Positions 8,499 to 63,742 of a DNA stretch of 64,000 bases are shown here, one piece after another. The notes beneath the pieces were generated by a model. It had not been told where the DNA came from. It worked only from the letters and a program-made list of their open reading frames with translations, and made no database searches. Source of the stretch: Candidatus Peribacteria bacterium (lineage in GTDB: Bacteria > Patescibacteriota > Gracilibacteria > Peribacterales > Peribacteraceae); contig CP082927.1 of NCBI GenBank assembly GCA_023038255.1, positions 758,146 through 822,145 of the forward strand. The letters run 5' to 3'. A program made the translations under genes and the position numbers. How positions within the stretch are numbered: the first letter of the stretch is position 1; every line of letters starts with the position of its first letter.

Positions 8499-8584
8499 CG
8501 AAGATACAAGAAACAAGCTGCAAGATACAAATAAGATACAACATAGAAAAACCCAATAACCAATTACCAATAACCCATCACCCA
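8499..8584. repeat. Intergenic degenerate word repeat between pth and the next gene
   Basis: Two blocks of short words: AAGATACAA-like words (8499-8541) and CCCAATAACC/CCCATCACCC-like words (about 8551-8584). The second block runs into the stop codon of the minus-strand gene at 8585 and resembles the TTATGGG-type family seen at other 3' ends in this window. Confidence 0.7.
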
Positions 8585-8974
8585 TTAAGACACTCTTGCC
8601 AGCGCAACCATCAACGCATCCCGAAAACCATCCGCATCACGAGATTGCGCCGTCGCCCCGTGTTCATGGGCAAGAACATTCCGCATCTTATGATACTTCC
8701 AGAGCGTCTGGATATTCGGAAAACGGGCACCGCCTTTTTTCAGTTTGTCCGCCGTGTTTCCCTGGAACCCGAGTTCATAGAACAACTGATCCAGAATTTT
8801 ATCGTACTCCAGAATGCGCATGGCAGGATCAGCCGCCTGATTTGTTTTTGCCATCATCGCCTGTATGCGCTTCACACTTGCCTCGCTCAGCTTGCGACCG
8901 TTGCGTGCTTTCCAAATGAGAAAGACAAATCCCGCAATCACAATCAGAACTATGGTGATGATAATTCCCTGCAT
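8585..8974 (-). CDS. Small membrane-anchored protein with HEPN-like motif
   Basis: 129 residues. Residues 2-20 form one membrane helix (GIIITIVLIVIAGFVFLIW), then a short basic stretch and a helical cytoplasmic domain. Near the end of that domain is WKYHKMRNVLAHEHG, in which RNVLAH fits the Rx4-6H signature of HEPN domains, and the preceding LDQLFYELGFQGNTADKL resembles the first helix pair of such domains. HEPN proteins are often RNases or nucleotide-binding helical bundles, but the motif alone is short. It is followed on the same strand by pth. Function unknown. Confidence 0.7.
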   Translation of the reverse strand: MQGIIITIVLIVIAGFVFLIWKARNGRKLSEASVKRIQAMMAKTNQAADPAMRILEYDKILDQLFYELGFQGNTADKLKKGGARFPNIQTLWKYHKMRNVLAHEHGATAQSRDADGFRDALMVALARVS

Positions 8975-35706: not shown

Positions 35707-35780
35707 AGAAATTAGCGGGGAAAGGCCGGTTTTATCTTAACAGAGCTTCTGCTCAAGAGAAAGCTATTGAGGGCATGAAT

Positions 35781-35876
35781 TGGTTATGGGTAATGGGTTA
35801 TGAGTTATGAGGAGAAGTAAAAAAAGATATTCCAAAATCCCCATAACCCATAACCGGTCACTCATAACCCGTTACT
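35781..35876. repeat. Inverted word repeat between infB and the DHH gene
   Basis: Words of the TTATGGG type on the plus strand (35781-35815) face complementary CCCATAACCC-type words (35839-35876), so the spacer can fold into a long imperfect hairpin. The second arm includes the stop codon of the minus-strand DHH gene. Confidence 0.8.
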
Positions 35877-37224
35877 GCGTAATATCCTGCACAATATCCC
35901 TCTCACTCACCGCAACTGCACTTGTTCCTCCGACTGCCTTCATGACATCCACTCCTTTCTCCGGAGCAGGAACAGGCAATGAGACAGAGACAACGGTCTC
36001 AGACTTGGGAATGTCTTTGGAAACGGCAACTGCCGGGCTCTTTTCCTCCTGCATATCATTCTCCTTTTGCAGCATGTGCATACCGTCTTTCAGTTTCTGG
36101 ATAGATTCCACAACGGCCAGCTGGAAATTATCAAACGACTTCACGCGGAAGCCGGATGCTCTCGCATGTCCGCCACCACCGAACGTTCTGCCGGCCAGCT
36201 GACTGCAATCGATTGCCGCAGACGACCGCATACTCGCTTTCAGCCCGCCTTCCTCCATTTCCGTGAAGAGAACGTAGACATCGGCATCGGGAATAGTGGA
36301 GATCAGTTCATCGAGAATGCCCTGCGTCTCTTTACTGGATGCATCCATTTCCGCGAGATCTTCTTTGCTGACAGATGACCAGACGATGCGGGATGCAGGA
36401 TCGATTTGAATGCGGTTGAGTGCGCGCCCCCAGATTTTGAGCGTGGAAAGCGGTTTGGTTTTATAAATATGCTGGATGATTTCCTGCTGACGCGCGCCTT
36501 TTTCGAGCAGCTCTGCTGCCACTTCAAGGGAACGCGGCGTCGTATTCGGATTCTGGAAACTGCGTGTATCGGTAATGAGACCTGTCAGAAGCAATGTTGC
36601 GAGATCCGGTGTAATTTTCTCTTTCCACTGCGGCACCTGCATGAACCAGCTGTAGAGCACTTCTGTGGCTGACGCTGCCGTCGGGTCAATGAGCTGCAGA
36701 TGTCCGAACTGTGTATTGGAAATGTGATGGTCGATATTCAGAATCGGCACTTCGGAGAAGAGATCGATGTGATCGGTATACAGCGACCCGAGCAATGCAA
36801 GATCGGCGGTATCGACAATAACAATGAGATCGTACTTCGGATCCCCTTCTGACAAACTGATCTGCTGCGGGCGGATCGTTCCTTTCTTCGGCACGACAAT
36901 AATATTCACGCGATGGTCTTCGACGGTGTAGCGAAGCTTGTCGATTTCTGCGCCTTCGTCGAGGTTGATGGTCACCACGAAGTCCTTGTTTTCTTTCACC
37001 TCCTGCTCAAATTTCTCAAATCCCGGGAGGAAGCTCAGAGAATCCGGTTTCACATCCGGACAAATGACTGTCACGTCTTTCCCCATGGCAGAGAAAATCT
37101 GATAACACGCAAGAGCGCTTGAGAGACCGTCCGGGTCAACGTTGGCATGCGGACTGATCAGAATACGCTGATGCTGCTCGATTGCCTGAAGGGCTGCCTG
37201 TATGGATTGCGGGTTGAGAGCCAT
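35872..37224 (-). CDS. nrnA: DHH-family phosphoesterase (NrnA-like)
   Basis: 450 residues. The DHH part has HANVDPDGLSSALA (Asp residues bind metal), VIVDTAD and NIDHHISNTQFG, the DHH motif. The DHHA1 part ends with GGGGHARASGFRV. Such enzymes degrade short RNA fragments (nanoRNA), pAp or cyclic dinucleotides. The last 90 residues form a low-complexity Val/Ser/Pro/Glu tail not found in the usual 320-residue NrnA. It neighbours infB as in many bacteria. A TTGCAA-17-TACAAT promoter lies upstream; the leader is about 50 nt. Confidence 0.9.
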   Translation of the reverse strand: MALNPQSIQAALQAIEQHQRILISPHANVDPDGLSSALACYQIFSAMGKDVTVICPDVKPDSLSFLPGFEKFEQEVKENKDFVVTINLDEGAEIDKLRYTVEDHRVNIIVVPKKGTIRPQQISLSEGDPKYDLIVIVDTADLALLGSLYTDHIDLFSEVPILNIDHHISNTQFGHLQLIDPTAASATEVLYSWFMQVPQWKEKITPDLATLLLTGLITDTRSFQNPNTTPRSLEVAAELLEKGARQQEIIQHIYKTKPLSTLKIWGRALNRIQIDPASRIVWSSVSKEDLAEMDASSKETQGILDELISTIPDADVYVLFTEMEEGGLKASMRSSAAIDCSQLAGRTFGGGGHARASGFRVKSFDNFQLAVVESIQKLKDGMHMLQKENDMQEEKSPAVAVSKDIPKSETVVSVSLPVPAPEKGVDVMKAVGGTSAVAVSERDIVQDITQ

Positions 37225-39084: not shown

Positions 39085-39103
39085 CGGGATGTAGCTCAGT
39101 TGG
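39085..39103 (+). repeat. Truncated copy of the tRNA-Pro 5' end
   Basis: Nineteen bases (CGGGATGTAGCTCAGTTGG) identical to the first 19 of tRNA-Pro at 39181, followed by unrelated sequence. GTCCGC-CCTA-GCGGAC (39109-39124) forms a perfect hairpin just after it. Preceded by CTACGGCGGGCAAGC (39070-39084), which recurs with one change at 52679-52693 near tRNA-Val. Confidence 0.85.
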
Positions 39104-39180
39104 GTTGAGTCCGCCCTAGCGGACGAACAATCAAACAATCGCCACGCTCCGGATCAGATTATCATTATTGGCATAAACCT

Positions 39181-39257
39181 CGGGATGTAGCTCAGTTGGC
39201 TAGAGCGTGTGCATGGGGTGCACAAGGCCGCAGGTTCGAGTCCTGTCATCCCGACCA
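39181..39257 (+). tRNA. tRNA-Pro (GGG)
   Basis: Acceptor CGGGATG (39181-39187) pairs with CATCCCG; discriminator A and encoded CCA (39255-39257). The anticodon arm TGTGC-ATGGGGT-GCACA gives GGG. T loop TTCGAGT is standard. Confidence 0.93.
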
Positions 39258-41134: not shown

Positions 41135-42400
41135 TTAAAACGGCGACACATACCGCGCTCCCCCATCCAACTCTTCTTCAATTCTCAGGAGCTCGTTATA
41201 TTTGCAGATGCGGTCCGTACGGGAGAGGGATCCGGTTTTGATCTGTCCGGTCTTCAAACCGACAGCGAGATGCGCGATAAACGTATCTTCAGTCTCTCCG
41301 CTTCTATGACTCGAAATAGCGTTCCAGCCGTTCTTCTGCGCCATCTGGATAGCATCGACGGTCTCGGACACTGTTCCGATCTGGTTTACTTTAATAAGCA
41401 CGGCGTTGGCTGCTTTCTGATCCAAAGCTTTCTGGATGCGCTGCGTGTTTGTGACGAGCAGGTCATCTCCGACAAGCTGCACGCGGTCGCCAAGGGCTGT
41501 GACCATTGCCTGGAATCCCTCCCAGTCGTCTTCGCTGTGACTGTCTTCAATGCTGACAATCGGGAACTGGTTCACGAGATCAACGTAGTACTGTGTGAGT
41601 TCCTGTGATGTCAGCTGCTTGCCGTCGAGCGTATAGACGCCGTCTTTGTAGAATTCAGAAGCAGCACAATCGATCGCGAGTTTTACCTTTCCTTCGTACC
41701 CCGCTTCTTTGATTGCTTCCATCAGAATGGCAAATGCTGCAGCACCGTTCTCCAGATGAGGGGCAAAGCCGCCTTCATCCCCTACTGCGGTCACGTATCC
41801 GCGATCTTTCAGAATTTTCTTGAGGATATGAAACACTTCCGTACCGGCGCGAAGCGCATCAGTGAATCGATCGAATCCAACCGGAACAATCATACATTCC
41901 TGGAAACTCAGTCCGCTGTCTGCGTGTGCGCCGCCATTCAGGACATTCATCAGCGGAACCGGGAGCAATGTTGCATCGGAGACATCAAACTGTTCTGCGA
42001 GCGACACGTACAAAGGCTTTTTGTCTGATGCAGCGCGTGCGCGGCAGACAGCCATCGAGACGCCAAGAATGGCGTTGGCACCGAAGCGTGCTTTGTTTGG
42101 CGTGCCATCAAGGTCAATGAGCATCTGGTCCACGGTGCGCTGATCGGCAACCTGAACGCCGTTCAGTGCGGTCGCAATCTCCCCATTCACATGGCCCACA
42201 GCCTTCAGCACAGACTTTCCGCCATAGACAGCTTTGTCGCCGTCGCGGAGTTCGAGTGCTTCATGCGAACCGGTCGATGCTCCGGATGGAACAGCGGCGC
42301 GGCCGAAGGAGCCATCGGAAAGCGTGCAATCGACTTCGACAGTCGGGTTGCCGCGAGAATCAATAATCTGACGTGCGTGGAGGTGGGTGATGGTAGGCAT
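41135..42400 (-). CDS. eno: Enolase
   Basis: 421 residues. It converts 2-phosphoglycerate to phosphoenolpyruvate, needed for glycolysis and also as pyruvyl donor for a CsaB enzyme. Landmarks: ARQIIDSRGNPTVEVD, VPSGASTGSHEALELRDGD, NVLNGGAHADSGLSFQECMI, VGDEGGFAP, SIEDSHSEDDWEGF, VGDDLLVTN, IKVNQIGTVSE and SHRSGETEDTFIAHLAV. CATACT (42407-42412) ends 6 nt before the ATG and lies at the edge of a repeat block. Confidence 0.97.
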   Translation of the reverse strand: MPTITHLHARQIIDSRGNPTVEVDCTLSDGSFGRAAVPSGASTGSHEALELRDGDKAVYGGKSVLKAVGHVNGEIATALNGVQVADQRTVDQMLIDLDGTPNKARFGANAILGVSMAVCRARAASDKKPLYVSLAEQFDVSDATLLPVPLMNVLNGGAHADSGLSFQECMIVPVGFDRFTDALRAGTEVFHILKKILKDRGYVTAVGDEGGFAPHLENGAAAFAILMEAIKEAGYEGKVKLAIDCAASEFYKDGVYTLDGKQLTSQELTQYYVDLVNQFPIVSIEDSHSEDDWEGFQAMVTALGDRVQLVGDDLLVTNTQRIQKALDQKAANAVLIKVNQIGTVSETVDAIQMAQKNGWNAISSHRSGETEDTFIAHLAVGLKTGQIKTGSLSRTDRICKYNELLRIEEELDGGARYVSPF

Positions 42401-42410
42401 GGAACGAGTA

Positions 42411-42510
42411 TGAATGAAGAATGAAGAATTGAGAATGGAGAATTAGGCTACATGAAAAATGAAAAGAAAATTCCATCATTCTCAACCCTCAATTCTCAAC
42501 CCTCAATTTT
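42411..42510. repeat. Inverted word repeat between eno and the next gene
   Basis: GAATGAAGAATTGAGAATGG-like words (42411-42445) face complementary CTCAACCCTCAATTCTCAAC words (42478-42510). The minus-strand gene at 42489 ends inside the second arm, so its last residues (LRVEN) are encoded by the repeat. Confidence 0.8.
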
Positions 42511-43346
42511 GCCCGATGATGCAAAAGCGCACTATAAACGGCAATCATGATGAGCAAGAAAACCCCGATATCCGGTCCGGAAGACGGCAGATGTGGCGGA
42601 TTCTTGATGCCTGGTTTTGTGGGAATCATGGCGATCTGCGAGCTGCTGCCACCGGAAATGAGTACGCCTTCAAGCGCTCCGGAAACGGTCATCGGTTCGT
42701 TTTCCAATGCGAGCAGACGCTCTTTTCTGCGCTCCTGACGACGAAGGGCAGCGCGCCACTTTTCCTCGTTTTCATCCAAAGACGGATCGAGATTACTGAC
42801 AGAAGACGATGAAATGTTTCCGGCAATAATCATGCCAGATCCGGTAGATGACGACGATCCATTGAAGATCGATGCAATCTGCTCCGGCCACTGAAAGCGC
42901 TCACCACTCAAACCAAACACGAGAAGCAGTAGCAAAAGACCACCTAAAAGCAGGGACCGCTGACGGCGCTGACGGATCACCGAAAAACAGAACCAGAAGA
43001 GTGCTGCAAACGCGAGGATGACAATCGGCAGAGACCATCCCCAGACAAAAATAGCTGAGAGAATAAGAAGAGACGGCAAAACGAAGCCGACAATCTGCAG
43101 GAAGAGCCACAGGAGCAAAATGCCCGCAGGCAAAAAATGCAGCATGCGGAATGCGTAGTCCGCGCGCCTCTCACGAAAGAGCGGATACAGCGAAAGCGGG
43201 TACGCAATGGTAAGCACAAACAGGATTCCCCATGCGAGCGCCGGGGCACTCATCATCTGCAAAATCGCGCACGCAATGCCTGTCACGAGAACCGCGCAGC
43301 CAAGAAAGAAAACAAGCCAGGTCTCTGTGGAATGCTTGAGTGGCAT
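42489..43346 (-). CDS. Unknown membrane protein with sorting-signal-like tail
   Basis: 285 residues. Four or five membrane helices in the first 150 residues, then a Ser-rich external stretch and a charged coil (KWRAALRRQERRKERLLALE). The tail is LPSSGPDIGVFLLIMIAVYSALLHHRAK: LPSSG, a membrane helix and basic residues, resembling an LPxTG-type sorting signal but after other membrane helices. Not recognised. The final five residues come from an intergenic repeat, suggesting the original stop was lost. Confidence 0.7.
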   Translation of the reverse strand: MPLKHSTETWLVFFLGCAVLVTGIACAILQMMSAPALAWGILFVLTIAYPLSLYPLFRERRADYAFRMLHFLPAGILLLWLFLQIVGFVLPSLLILSAIFVWGWSLPIVILAFAALFWFCFSVIRQRRQRSLLLGGLLLLLLVFGLSGERFQWPEQIASIFNGSSSSTGSGMIIAGNISSSSVSNLDPSLDENEEKWRAALRRQERRKERLLALENEPMTVSGALEGVLISGGSSSQIAMIPTKPGIKNPPHLPSSGPDIGVFLLIMIAVYSALLHHRAKLRVEN

Positions 43347-43400
43347 AGCGGATAATAGTGATGGACAATGGGTTTGGTGTCAATTTTTCTATATACCTAG

Positions 43401-43480
43401 AAGTTACAGGTTTAAAAGTAAAAAGTTTAAACGTTCACTAAAAATAACCTTTAAACTTTCAAACATTTAAACGTTTTAAC
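43401..43480. repeat. Inverted word repeat downstream of corA
   Basis: GTTTAAACG/AGTTTAAA-type words in two facing blocks (43408-43435 and 43446-43480). The block begins 5 nt after the corA stop on the minus strand. Different words from those at other loci but the same layout. Confidence 0.75.
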
Positions 43481-43485
43481 TCTCA

Positions 43486-44400: not shown

Positions 44401-44813
44401 TTGCGCTTTCTGGGAAGATACTTGGAACGCGGGTCATGTGTGACTTTTGTCGGGAGCACTTCGTAGTGGCGTGCGCGGAAGAGGCGGAACTGGAGCGTGA
44501 TGTAGAGCACTGCAAGAATTGCCCAGACCAACCACCAGACACGCATGGAGACAAACTGGATCTGCTCCACACGGGAAACGACAAGAATGAGTCCGACAAA
44601 CCCGAACCAGAACGAAGCGGTTGGCCAGGTGCGGCTGAGTTTACGCGTGACAGCGTTCGACATTTTCTTGCGCCAGACAGAGAGAGCAACCGCTCCAGCC
44701 ATCAGAAGAATACAGAGAACGAGCAGGGCCACAGACTTCGGGCTGCTGTAATCCGCGTTAGCAGGATTCGGATAGAACAAAAACGAGAAAACCTGGAAGA
44801 GGAAGGTATTCAT
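44397..44813 (-). CDS. Small membrane protein in the lgt-corA operon
   Basis: 138 residues with four hydrophobic segments (for example VALLVLCILLMAGAVALSVW and FWFGFVGLILVVS). Basic C-terminus (SKYLPRKRK). Not recognised. It overlaps corA by 4 nt and the upstream gene by 4 nt, implying tight co-translation. Confidence 0.75.
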   Translation of the reverse strand: MNTFLFQVFSFLFYPNPANADYSSPKSVALLVLCILLMAGAVALSVWRKKMSNAVTRKLSRTWPTASFWFGFVGLILVVSRVEQIQFVSMRVWWLVWAILAVLYITLQFRLFRARHYEVLPTKVTHDPRSKYLPRKRK

Positions 44814-45313
44814 AAACCAAGATGGGAATGAGTATCAGAGTGATCGTGATGATGGTGACCATGTTTCTTTATATCTTCGTCGTTCTTCTCTTCTTTCTCT
44901 TCATCTTCCTTGTCATCTTTGTCATCCTCGTCTTCTTCGTCTTCTTCGTCCTCCTCGTCCTCCTCGTCATCCTCGTCATCCTTCTCACCAACCCCCACTT
45001 CAATCTGGGACGGCGCTTCTGTTGCGACAAGTGTGAGGATCATCGCCTCCAGTTCACGCTCCTTGATCGTGCGGGCCGGACGGATCAGCAGGTAAATCAG
45101 AAATCCGATAATCGGAAATACCGTCACAATCACAATACAGGCAAACTGGTACCAGAAAGACCGTGTGCGCAGCAGAATGTCGCGCAGTGCAAAAAACAGC
45201 AGAAAGAGAACCAGTGCTGCCAGAAGAATCAGTCCACCCTGTCCCAGGCGCAATCCCGGATTCTCCATGATATACGCGGTAAAAGGAGCCAGGGAAAGAG
45301 AAAGAGAAGACAT
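44810..45313 (-). CDS. Membrane protein with acidic and His-rich tail
   Basis: 167 residues. Three hydrophobic segments; the last two with FPIIGFLIYLLIRPARTI match the PLDc_N-type pair found in several small membrane proteins. From about residue 108 the tail is almost purely Asp/Glu/Lys for 40 residues and then HGHHHHDHSDTHSH. Such a tail can bind divalent metal ions. Two genes from corA in the same operon, so a role in cation handling is possible. The membrane part is in a known general family; the tail is not. Confidence 0.75.
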   Translation of the reverse strand: MSSLSLSLAPFTAYIMENPGLRLGQGGLILLAALVLFLLFFALRDILLRTRSFWYQFACIVIVTVFPIIGFLIYLLIRPARTIKERELEAMILTLVATEAPSQIEVGVGEKDDEDDEEDEEDEEDEEDEDDKDDKEDEEKEEKNDEDIKKHGHHHHDHSDTHSHLGL

Positions 45314-46267: not shown

Positions 46268-46320
46268 AGTACTAAGGTAACAGAGAACGCCCTCATCGGA
46301 AATGATACAATCTTCATTCG

Positions 46321-46392
46321 AGTTATGAATCAGGAATTATGAATTATGGCACATTTGACTATGCATAACTCATAATTCATACATCATAATTC
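46321..46392. repeat. Inverted word repeat downstream of thrS
   Basis: GAATTATGAATTATG-like words (46321-46350) face CATAACTCATAATTCATA-like words (46363-46392). It lies just after the thrS stop, in the same layout as the other 3' word repeats but with its own words. Confidence 0.8.
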
Positions 46393-46397
46393 CTTCA

Positions 46398-48200
46398 TCA
46401 TCCGATAGATAACTCTAACTTCCTCGAAGCAACATCATTGGTCACCGATGCAATGAACTCGTCGACCGCGACGGTCACCTGCTGCTTGGTTCTGATGTTA
46501 CGAACGGTCACGCTGTTCTCCGCAATTTCACGGTCACCGATGACGAGTAAGTACGGAATGCGCTGCGTCTCACCGTCGCGGATGCGCTTGCCAAGAGATT
46601 CGTCGGAGTTCATGTAGTCGATGCGGATTTTCTTCTCCAGAAGCTTCATGCCAAGGTCAGACGCAAATTGCTCATGCGTGGATGCGACCGGCAGGATGGC
46701 AACCTGGACAGGGGCAACCCACAGCGGGAAATGTCCGGCGTGGTGCTCGATGAAAATCGAGAGGAAACGCTCGATGGCACCCATCACGGCACAGTGGATC
46801 ATGACAATACGCTCCTTCTCCCCGCTCTCGTTAATGCAGAAGAGATCAAACCGCTCCGGCATGTTGATGTCGAGCTGGATGGTTGCAACCTGCCACTCAC
46901 GGCCGATGGAGTCTTTGGTGATGAAGTCGACCTTCGGTCCGTAGAATGCCGCTTCACCCGGCGCTTCGATGTACTTTACGCCACGCTCCTTTGCGATGCT
47001 GCGGATAGCATTTTCGGCTTTGTTCCAGACCTCCGGCGTCCCGAGATATTTCTCGAAGTGTTCAGGATCGTGAAGGGACAGGCGGACCTGCAGCTCGTTG
47101 AAACCGGTTGTCTTGTAGAAGGTATCGATAATGTCCCACACGCGCAGGAATTCTTCTTCTACCTGGCTCTGGCGGCAGAACACGTGTGCATCGTCCTGGG
47201 TGATGCTGCGGACGCGGGACAGACCATGCAACTCCCCTGTCTGTTCGTCGCGGTACACCATCGTGGTTTCTGTGTAGCGCTGGGGCAAATCCTTATAGCT
47301 GCGCTGCTTGTGTGCATAAATCTGCGTGTGGTGCGGACAGTTCATCGGCTTCATCGCAAATTCGTGCTCGTCACGGGTCTGAATGCGGAAAAGGTCATCT
47401 TTGAATTTTGCCCAGTGACCGGATGTTTCGTAGAGTTCTTTCTTGGTGATGTGCGGGATAGTGACTTTCATGTAGCCCTTGGCTTCGCGCAGTTCCCAGA
47501 CGAACGCATCGAGCGTGTTGCGCATCAGTGTGCCGCGCGGTGTCCAGAGCGGAAGACCCGGACCGACGAGATCGCTGAAGGTGAAGAGATCCATTTCCTT
47601 CCCGAGTTTGCGGTGATCACGCTTCTTGGCTTCTTCCATCTGCGCGAGGTATGCATCGAGCTCTTCTTTGGACCCGAACGCTGCCACGTAAATACGTGTG
47701 AGCTGTTCGCGCTTTTCGTCGCCTCTCCAGTACGCACCGGCAAGGGTTGTGAGCTTGAATCCATCCACAGGAATCTCTTTGAGGTTCTCGACGTGTCCGC
47801 CGCGGCAGAGATCCACGTACGCATCTTCCCCTTTGAGGTTCACGTTCGTGTAGTTTGTGACCATCTCCACGTTTTCGTTCTTCACGAGGTCTTCAATCAT
47901 TTCCACTTTGAACCGCTGGTTTTTCTCTTTCCAGAACGCAGTTGCATCTTTCACAGGGAGTTCATCACGACGGAAGGTCTGACCCTGGTAGATGATCTTC
48001 TTCATTTCCTTCTCAATCGCCGGAAAATCGGCATCGGTAATAGGAGTTGTGAAAAGGAAGTCAAAATAACAGCCGGTCTCAATAGCAGGACCAATGGCGC
48101 GCTCAGTGCCGGGCCACAGGTTTTCGACGGCCTGGGCAAGGACATGGGCCAGAGAATGGCGCATGGACGCGAGTTCTTCGGGTGTGGAGAAAGTGGACAT
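46398..48200 (-). CDS. thrS: Threonyl-tRNA synthetase lacking the TGS domain
   Basis: 600 residues from ATG 48200; TATAGT (48207-48212) ends 6 nt before it. The protein begins in the editing domain (MRHSLAHVLAQAVENLWPG, AIGPAIETGCYFDF), so the N-terminal TGS domain of E. coli-type enzymes is missing. The catalytic core is complete: PLWTPRGTLMRNTL, KPMNCPHHTQIYA (zinc Cys), YRDEQTGELHGLSRVRSITQDDAHVFC, and FIEHHAGHFPLWVAPVQVAILPV. Anticodon-binding domain at the end. Confidence 0.96.
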   Translation of the reverse strand: MSTFSTPEELASMRHSLAHVLAQAVENLWPGTERAIGPAIETGCYFDFLFTTPITDADFPAIEKEMKKIIYQGQTFRRDELPVKDATAFWKEKNQRFKVEMIEDLVKNENVEMVTNYTNVNLKGEDAYVDLCRGGHVENLKEIPVDGFKLTTLAGAYWRGDEKREQLTRIYVAAFGSKEELDAYLAQMEEAKKRDHRKLGKEMDLFTFSDLVGPGLPLWTPRGTLMRNTLDAFVWELREAKGYMKVTIPHITKKELYETSGHWAKFKDDLFRIQTRDEHEFAMKPMNCPHHTQIYAHKQRSYKDLPQRYTETTMVYRDEQTGELHGLSRVRSITQDDAHVFCRQSQVEEEFLRVWDIIDTFYKTTGFNELQVRLSLHDPEHFEKYLGTPEVWNKAENAIRSIAKERGVKYIEAPGEAAFYGPKVDFITKDSIGREWQVATIQLDINMPERFDLFCINESGEKERIVMIHCAVMGAIERFLSIFIEHHAGHFPLWVAPVQVAILPVASTHEQFASDLGMKLLEKKIRIDYMNSDESLGKRIRDGETQRIPYLLVIGDREIAENSVTVRNIRTKQQVTVAVDEFIASVTNDVASRKLELSIG

Positions 48201-51731: not shown

Positions 51732-51828
51732 ACTTCGGGTGGAGCATGAGGGGTGATCATGTCGAAAAAATACAAAGTAAGATGGAGTGTACTTGGCGAG
51801 TACAAAAAGTTTTCAAAAAAAATCCAAA

Positions 51829-51861
51829 CCCCATAACCCATAACCAATTACCCATAACCCG
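51829..51861 (-). repeat. 33-nt TTATGGG-type element after comF
   Basis: Read on the minus strand it begins 2 nt after the comF stop. It matches the element at 63710-63742 in 32 of 33 positions and the 5' half of the 35839 block exactly over 17 nt. Confidence 0.9.
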
Positions 51862-63097: not shown

Positions 63098-63709
63098 ATG
63101 ACAAATCTGTCCCCTGCCACCGATACCGCTATTGCGAAGAAATACGCAATGGATTCGCTCGAGCTGAAAGCGCAGAACAAAGTGGCGCTGCAGGAAGAAC
63201 TGGGCTGGACCCCCGAGCCGAAGCGCGCGATGGTGTGTCTCCCGACTGGAATGAGTGAAAAGCTGGGCGGCAATTTATTGAAGGAATTGATCCCGGGACT
63301 GCTCGCTCTGCCGATTGAAATTGTGATTCTCGGAAAAGGCTCTGCAGAATTCGGCGCGTTCCTCACAGACATTGCAAAGGAACACAGTCACCGCATTGCG
63401 ATTGTCCCGAACGACGAAAAGCACATCCGCAAAATGTTTGCCGCTGCGGACATGGCTCTCTTCCTGAGCGACGCAACAGGAATGCCGGAGCTCGAGGCAG
63501 CCCTCTGCTACGGCACAATCCCCCTCTGCCCGATAACCAAGAGCATCAAGGCTTACGACCCGAACCAGGAAAGTGGTGAGGGATTTTTGTATGAAAAGCA
63601 GACGGTATGGCATGCCTATGGTGCGATTGTCCGTGCGCTCGAAACCTTCCGCTTCCCATACGACTGGAAGACGATTCAGAAGTCATGCATGGAACGGACT
63701 TCGAAGTGA
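63098..63709 (+). CDS. Glycogen-synthase-like C-terminal GT-B domain protein
   Basis: 203 residues from ATG 63098. It corresponds to the nucleotide-sugar-binding half of GT5 synthases: NKVALQEELGWTPEPKRA, LPTGMSEKLGGNLL (place of RLxxQKG), IEIVILGKGSAEFGAFL, KMFAAADMALFLSDATGMPE and LEAALCYGTIPLCPITKSI. The N-terminal acceptor half is missing, and the key RxxxQK residues are altered, so it may not synthesise glycogen. Its leader is shared with the 55241 gene. Confidence 0.7.
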   Translation: MTNLSPATDTAIAKKYAMDSLELKAQNKVALQEELGWTPEPKRAMVCLPTGMSEKLGGNLLKELIPGLLALPIEIVILGKGSAEFGAFLTDIAKEHSHRIAIVPNDEKHIRKMFAAADMALFLSDATGMPELEAALCYGTIPLCPITKSIKAYDPNQESGEGFLYEKQTVWHAYGAIVRALETFRFPYDWKTIQKSCMERTSK

Positions 63710-63742
63710 CGGGTTATGGGTTATTGGTTATGGGTTATGGGG
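63710..63742 (+). repeat. 33-nt TTATGGG-type element after the GT5-like gene
   Basis: It starts with the base directly after the TGA stop (63707-63709). One mismatch to the copy at 51829-51861. Confidence 0.9.

Follow-up and report, generated by a model that had tools for sequence, protein, structure and literature searches.

How do spacers behind unrelated genes come to consist of short degenerate words on one arm and their complements on the other, and do such inverted word arrays serve the genes that they follow? The question arises from four spacers in a 64,000-nt stretch of contig CP082927.1 (hereafter the window) of a Candidatus Peribacteria bacterium, whose genome is complete at 1.24 Mb in one contig. 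The original prediction, made from the letters of the window, held that each locus has a word of its own placed beside a stop codon, that some process makes or maintains inverted arrays instead of copying a single sequence, and that the hairpins could act as terminators without T-runs.

The predicted layout is present in all four spacers, each of which folds better than its shuffled versions (z -2.74 to -6.52; Table 1). Their position beside stop codons is likewise confirmed. The stem begins 2 nt past the stop of the DHH gene, 4 nt past that of corA and 5 nt past that of thrS. In the fourth spacer, at 42.4 kb, arrays at 42412-42443 and 42478-42508 contain the words GAATTGAG/GGTTGAG and GAATGAA/GAATGGA, and the second array runs into the end of ORF 42489-43346. 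The expected lack of T-runs holds for the thrS loop and for the sequence past the stems, where there is no U-tail, and fails elsewhere: in the sense direction the loops of the DHH (35.8 kb) and corA (43.4 kb) hairpins contain T7 and T5, respectively, and TTTTCTTTTCATTTTT occupies the centre of the 42.4 kb hairpin.

Table 1. Word arrays in the window. Fold z refers to the upstream gene's strand.
Feature	Position	Strand	Folded span	Fold z	Shuffles as good (of 200)	Array score
Inverted word array between ORF 42489-43346 and enolase (41135-42400)	42411..42510	-	42405-42515	-4.10	0	
Inverted array of 8-base words (GTTTAAAC type), 3' of corA	43401..43480	-	43395-43485	-2.74	2	
Inverted array of GAATTATG words, 3' of thrS	46320..46401	-	46315-46400	-4.55	0	
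Inverted array of GGTTATG words, 3' of DHH gene (35872-37224)	35779..35876	-	35775-35880	-6.52	0	
Unpaired arrays (GGTTATT/GGTGATG, then CTTGTAT words) occupying spacer	8501..8585	-				23
Single GGTTATG array past stop codon, then T-run	51819..51860	-				
Single GGTTATG array beginning at stop codon (TGACG, then GGTTATG), T-run 17 nt beyond	63706..63741	+				

Word arrays were counted in the window plus 20 stretches of the same genome (464 kb in all), using a score cut-off of at least 12. Intergenic arrays numbered 31, compared to 0.2 expected after shuffling, a density slightly inflated by the choice of stretches, which were picked partly to include five already-matched places. Period 7 accounts for 24 of these 31 arrays. 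They lie in 75.8 kb of spacer, and 16 arrays at the same cut-off were found in 382 kb of coding sequence. Lag 7 is also the commonest in genomes G011, G004 and G034; in G019, 9-base arrays equal or exceed those of lag 7 in number. Ordinary hairpins followed by U-runs occur in the genome as well, many of them between convergent genes, and because they exist alongside the word arrays we treat the latter as a class of their own.

A survey of 686 spacers of 40-260 nt from 11 genomes detected 130 hairpins scoring at least 26 (27 in shuffled spacers) and 36 scoring at least 36 (none in shuffles). Word arms were present in 27 of the 130: 18 in same-strand spacers, 8 in divergent spacers, an assignment that depends on the gene caller's uncertain start codons, and 1 in a convergent spacer. 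The 42.4 kb spacer falls outside these 27, as its array overlaps an ORF end and the spacer is cut there.

The idea that each locus has its own word did not survive the genome-wide search. GGTTATG clusters number 43 in this genome, where GGTTAT.GGTTAT matches 66 times and its reversed control 4 times; the GAATTGAG/GAATGAAG stretch at 42.4 kb also matches four further places, at 84-97%. Runs of three GGTTAT words were found 22 times here and, among 192 genomes searched, in only three others. Exactly four words were found in 52 of 61 aligned GGTTATG arrays, a count of which only the upper limit is informative since the search required four. Within these arrays the words are not equivalent: exact GGTTATG stands at word positions 1-4 in 39, 13, 37 and 32 of the 61, and TGA or TAA falls inside words 1-4 in 7, 25, 10 and 3. 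None of 5000 permutations matched the positional pattern of the second word. Blocks, beyond words alone, therefore have common descent, and copying of whole four-word blocks does occur within this genome.

This positional structure is what a dispersed mobile family might leave behind, with palindromes or four-word blocks copied, in a REP- or MITE-like manner, by a putative transposase. A GGAAT...T5 motif past 10 of the 61 GGTTATG arrays (0.0035 of background windows) and the presence or absence of hairpins between congeners point the same way. However, the Y1 (RAYT) transposase domain PF01797 is absent from this genome (0/1; controls 5/14), a search that was not systematic recognised no constant ends or target duplications, and the vocabulary varies by genus, with word lengths of 7 to 9 at one site. 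We consider a mobile family an unlikely source of the arrays.

Other repeats were encountered during these searches. GGTTATG arrays also lie within long ORFs (L031:16183-16211, L039:13716-13745, L123 and L115), and 6 of 10 such arrays are oriented so that the words contain no stop codon. Genome G128 contains 13 matches to the reversed control pattern (TATTGGNTATTGGNTATTGG), apparently reflecting another heptamer vocabulary. A separate hairpin family, GTCA(C/T)NCTGAG...CTCAGNATGAC, occupies spacers in several genomes of the class (L034:13172-13255, L041:16945-17074, L198 and L199).

Word hairpins in same-strand spacers are tied to the upstream gene. All 18 begin at most 11 nt from its stop codon, where 7.0 would be expected and none of 20000 simulations gave as many; the other end of 3 of them is at most 11 nt from the following gene. 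Other long hairpins follow the same trend more weakly, with 29 of 51 at the upstream stop compared to 15.0 expected. When the folded region was widened, 9 of the 18 stems reached more than 10 nt further into the upstream ORF. Because pairing immediately outside the original stem is at background level, we judged this extension to be chance; it nevertheless means that the boundary of the stems at the stop codon is less well defined than the count of 18 alone would suggest. A proposal that stems abut start codons in divergent spacers was dropped owing to the uncertain start codons of the simple gene caller. The words themselves are also positioned and oriented. GGTTATG begins two bases past the stop codon at 8 loci, and in 26 of the 35 intergenic clusters the G-rich strand points outward from the closest gene edge (in loci not used to notice the rule, 14 of 20, a borderline result).

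Stems placed at stop codons would be expected if long hairpins were selected as transcript-end signals, forming or protecting mRNA 3' ends without Rho; only pairing would then matter, so words could turn over. None of the 39 genomes in the class sample (this one and 38 relatives) yielded the Rho RNA-binding domain (PF07497), compared to 9 of 14 controls; Rho is also absent from cyanobacteria (PMC13289151). Loading of Rho on the C-rich arm was dropped as a candidate because Rho was not detected. In further agreement with transcript-end signals, 12 of the 19 arrays that point away from a stop codon are followed by a T-run of at least 5 (background 0.14) and 3 by an A-run (background 0.16), and for the 20 arrays that point away from a start codon the numbers are 5 and 9. 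These counts take both arms of a hairpin and so are not independent between rows. The recurrence of hairpins after thrS, described below, also favours such signals.

Several results argue in the other direction. No U-tail follows the stem in any of the 27 word hairpins from the 11 genomes, and on the sense strand of same-strand spacers G-T mismatches are not in excess over A-C mismatches (43 vs 32, p 0.25). The lack of a U-tail and of an RNA-level pairing signature led us to reject an ordinary intrinsic terminator, and the suggestion of terminators without T-runs is not supported. T-runs were found in the loops of 4 of the 18 same-strand word hairpins, all in this genome, and A-runs in none. 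Word hairpins also occur in the 8 spacers called divergent, and gain and loss between congeners is fast. A role at transcript ends is possible; that selection for such a role accounts for the arrays we regard as doubtful. Stems that proved to set transcript ends would reveal how a lineage in which Rho was not detected delimits its transcripts.

To follow the same spacers across genera, we used 18 of 30 thrS loci, 17 of 30 DHH loci and 6 of 13 corA loci, leaving out those at contig ends, those of other families or paralogs and those with in-frame stops. A hairpin was called when the best z was -3.2 or lower; the thrS spacer of G013 just missed this value and is not counted. By this measure a hairpin follows thrS in 9 of 18 genomes, corA in 3 of 6 and the DHH gene in 2 of 17, compared to 1 of 123 coding controls. 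The words differ from genome to genome. In the corA spacer they are 8 bases long here, 7 in G009 and 9 in G003. For thrS, the two arms of a genome's own hairpin have a mean identity of 0.81, compared to 0.54 for arms from different genomes and 0.53 for shuffled arms. Since arms match within and not between genomes, both arms acquire new words over long times. This agreement speaks for the part of the original prediction that posited a process making inverted arrays; its other part, that no single sequence is copied, is contradicted by the four-word blocks. In another Peribacteria record (L024), which contains a 74% match to the corA protein, the enolase spacer also carries an inverted array, with different words, and the thrS spacer is about 15 nt long and without an array.

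It should also be noted that in three genomes of the same class (G033, G035 and G031) the thrS and DHH genes have several TGA codons in frame, a pattern also found in lineages where TGA encodes an amino acid.

Shorter times were covered by congeneric pairs with 75-86% DNA identity over aligned stretches (G013/G175, at 72%, was left out). Across 55 syntenic-spacer comparisons, among which a few spacers are counted twice because G193 was compared with two partners, a word hairpin was present in at least one partner in 16. Two of these were shared and 14 were found in one partner only, the latter number being inflated since a partner hairpin that is weaker or differently worded was scored as absent. 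With a looser filter and reversed pairs left out, 15 hairpins were shared, 21 (21/36) were in one partner only and 23 spacers had a hairpin in neither.

The shared hairpins indicate how the arms change. In the clearest, that of G012/G117, the loop is near-identical, one arm reads (TGCAAAA)4 in one genome and (GGGAAAT)4 in the other, and the opposite arm differs by one lost word. The hairpin shared by G193 and G134 has substitutions scattered on both arms and has lost words; in one spacer of this pair the roughly 100 nt beside the block are near-identical and the block has different words. In the hairpin shared by G197 and G122, which is not in the counts based on 16 hairpins, each arm has undergone minor changes of its own. 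No instance of the two arms changing together step by step appeared in the congeneric pairs inspected, in which informative cases were few, nor was fold-back copying itself observed. Judged from these alignments, the congener pattern is one of block turnover and slippage.

These comparisons bear most directly on the notion of a dedicated process that generates inverted word arrays and holds the two arms in agreement. The match of arms within but not between genomes, and the existence of genome vocabularies, are what such a process would produce. The result that had been named beforehand as evidence to the contrary was seen in one close pair (G012/G117), where mainly one arm changed, and in G193/G134 the scattered changes affect both arms. 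Whole blocks are gained or lost between congeners, and only 21 of the 61 GGTTATG arrays could be paired with a partner array. A dedicated writing process is thus very unlikely. Also very unlikely is a reading in which each lineage has a putative templated writer, telomerase- or reverse-transcriptase-like, that adds lineage-specific words of 7-9 bases to DNA ends at gene boundaries, so that two joined ends make an inverted array with G-words outward. It would fit the genome vocabularies, the constant word length per array, the four-word blocks and the outward polarity.

Similar repeats are known from other bacteria, and the literature searched, mostly without subscription papers, yielded no description of such arrays in this phylum. 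The STRR heptamers of cyanobacteria are hairpin-capable 7-base repeats in operon spacers whose function is given as unknown (PMC2670836, citing Mazel 1990). The arrays described here share the 7-base period, the spacer location and the capacity to form hairpins, and differ in belonging to a distant phylum, in their words and in including 8- and 9-base words (PMC2670836). GGGAATC and GGGGA(C/T)T repeats of Xanthomonas and Nostoc are closer still in layout: they have period 7, are intergenic, prefer about four units, form some inverted pairs and vary in length and sequence between close species, and their G-strand (Rehm et al.) lies sense close after stops and antisense close before starts (PMC4692102). 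The period, the intergenic location, the inverted pairs and the variation between close species have counterparts here, and the four-unit preference and outward polarity may have. The GGGAATC class is G-rich and forms G-quadruplexes in vitro (PMC4692102), whereas many vocabularies in our genomes are not G-rich and most lack GGG tracts. TAACTGA repeats of marine Beggiatoaceae are also heptamer arrays that abut gene edges, and close Cyanothece strains differ in 7-step indels; these repeats, however, consist of one word, mostly before start codons, with hardly any inverted pairs (PMC4679880). REP elements and canonical intrinsic terminators are likewise hairpins near transcript ends (PMC13289151); here there is no U-tail and no RAYT gene, and words replace one conserved palindrome.

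We therefore file the word arrays under the heptameric STRR-type class, whose period and intergenic excess they display and whose four-unit preference and polarity may fit. Inverted word hairpins of 7-9 letters are real and common in this group; they resemble the heptamer repeats known from cyanobacteria and Xanthomonas more than a new kind of system. The reading that we prefer, with a probability of roughly 0.55, is that they are STRR-like, fast-turnover palindromic repeats tolerated past stop codons, probably carried as 3'-UTR hairpins. It is supported by period 7, the intergenic excess, the shared vocabulary and the atypical second word of the four-word block, by the stem at the stop codon, the different words at orthologous sites and the presence of hairpins in one congener only, and by the one-arm word replacement in G012/G117 and the absence of a sense-strand pairing asymmetry. 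Some observations fit it less well: hairpins after thrS recur in 9 of 18 genera, above what tolerance alone would lead one to expect; the loop T-runs of this genome are oriented with the upstream gene, which hints at an RNA role; and neither the spread of one block to 43 clusters nor the G-strand polarity is explained by slippage.

For STRR-like repeats we envisage the following course. Words would arise and be homogenised through replication slippage, and blocks would be copied or re-created at new places. The second arm would come from fold-back (template-switch) copying; template switching is known to generate and to correct inverted repeats in DNA (PMC8794818), although the arm-to-arm correction described there was not seen in the close pairs inspected. 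Blocks would last mainly at sites that tolerate insertions well, downstream of a stop codon and ahead of the region that controls the following gene. Once transcribed, a block would become a long 3'-UTR or inter-cistron hairpin and may slow 3'-5' RNA decay, a putative effect that would be incidental or only sometimes put to use.

These results extend a poorly understood repeat class, known from cyanobacteria, Xanthomonas and Beggiatoaceae, to bacteria with tiny genomes and no detected Rho. The comparative set, in which one spacer is followed across many genera and through congeneric pairs, separates the turnover of words from the gain and loss of whole blocks.

Two further features of the window were recorded. 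Rfam matched four tRNAs in the window and no further family; the 5' part of the tRNA at 39181 (39181-39254) recurs as a fragment some 90 bases upstream (39088-39115). Within ORF 44810-45313, positions 44886-44987 have a strong 9-base periodicity and encode an acidic stretch.
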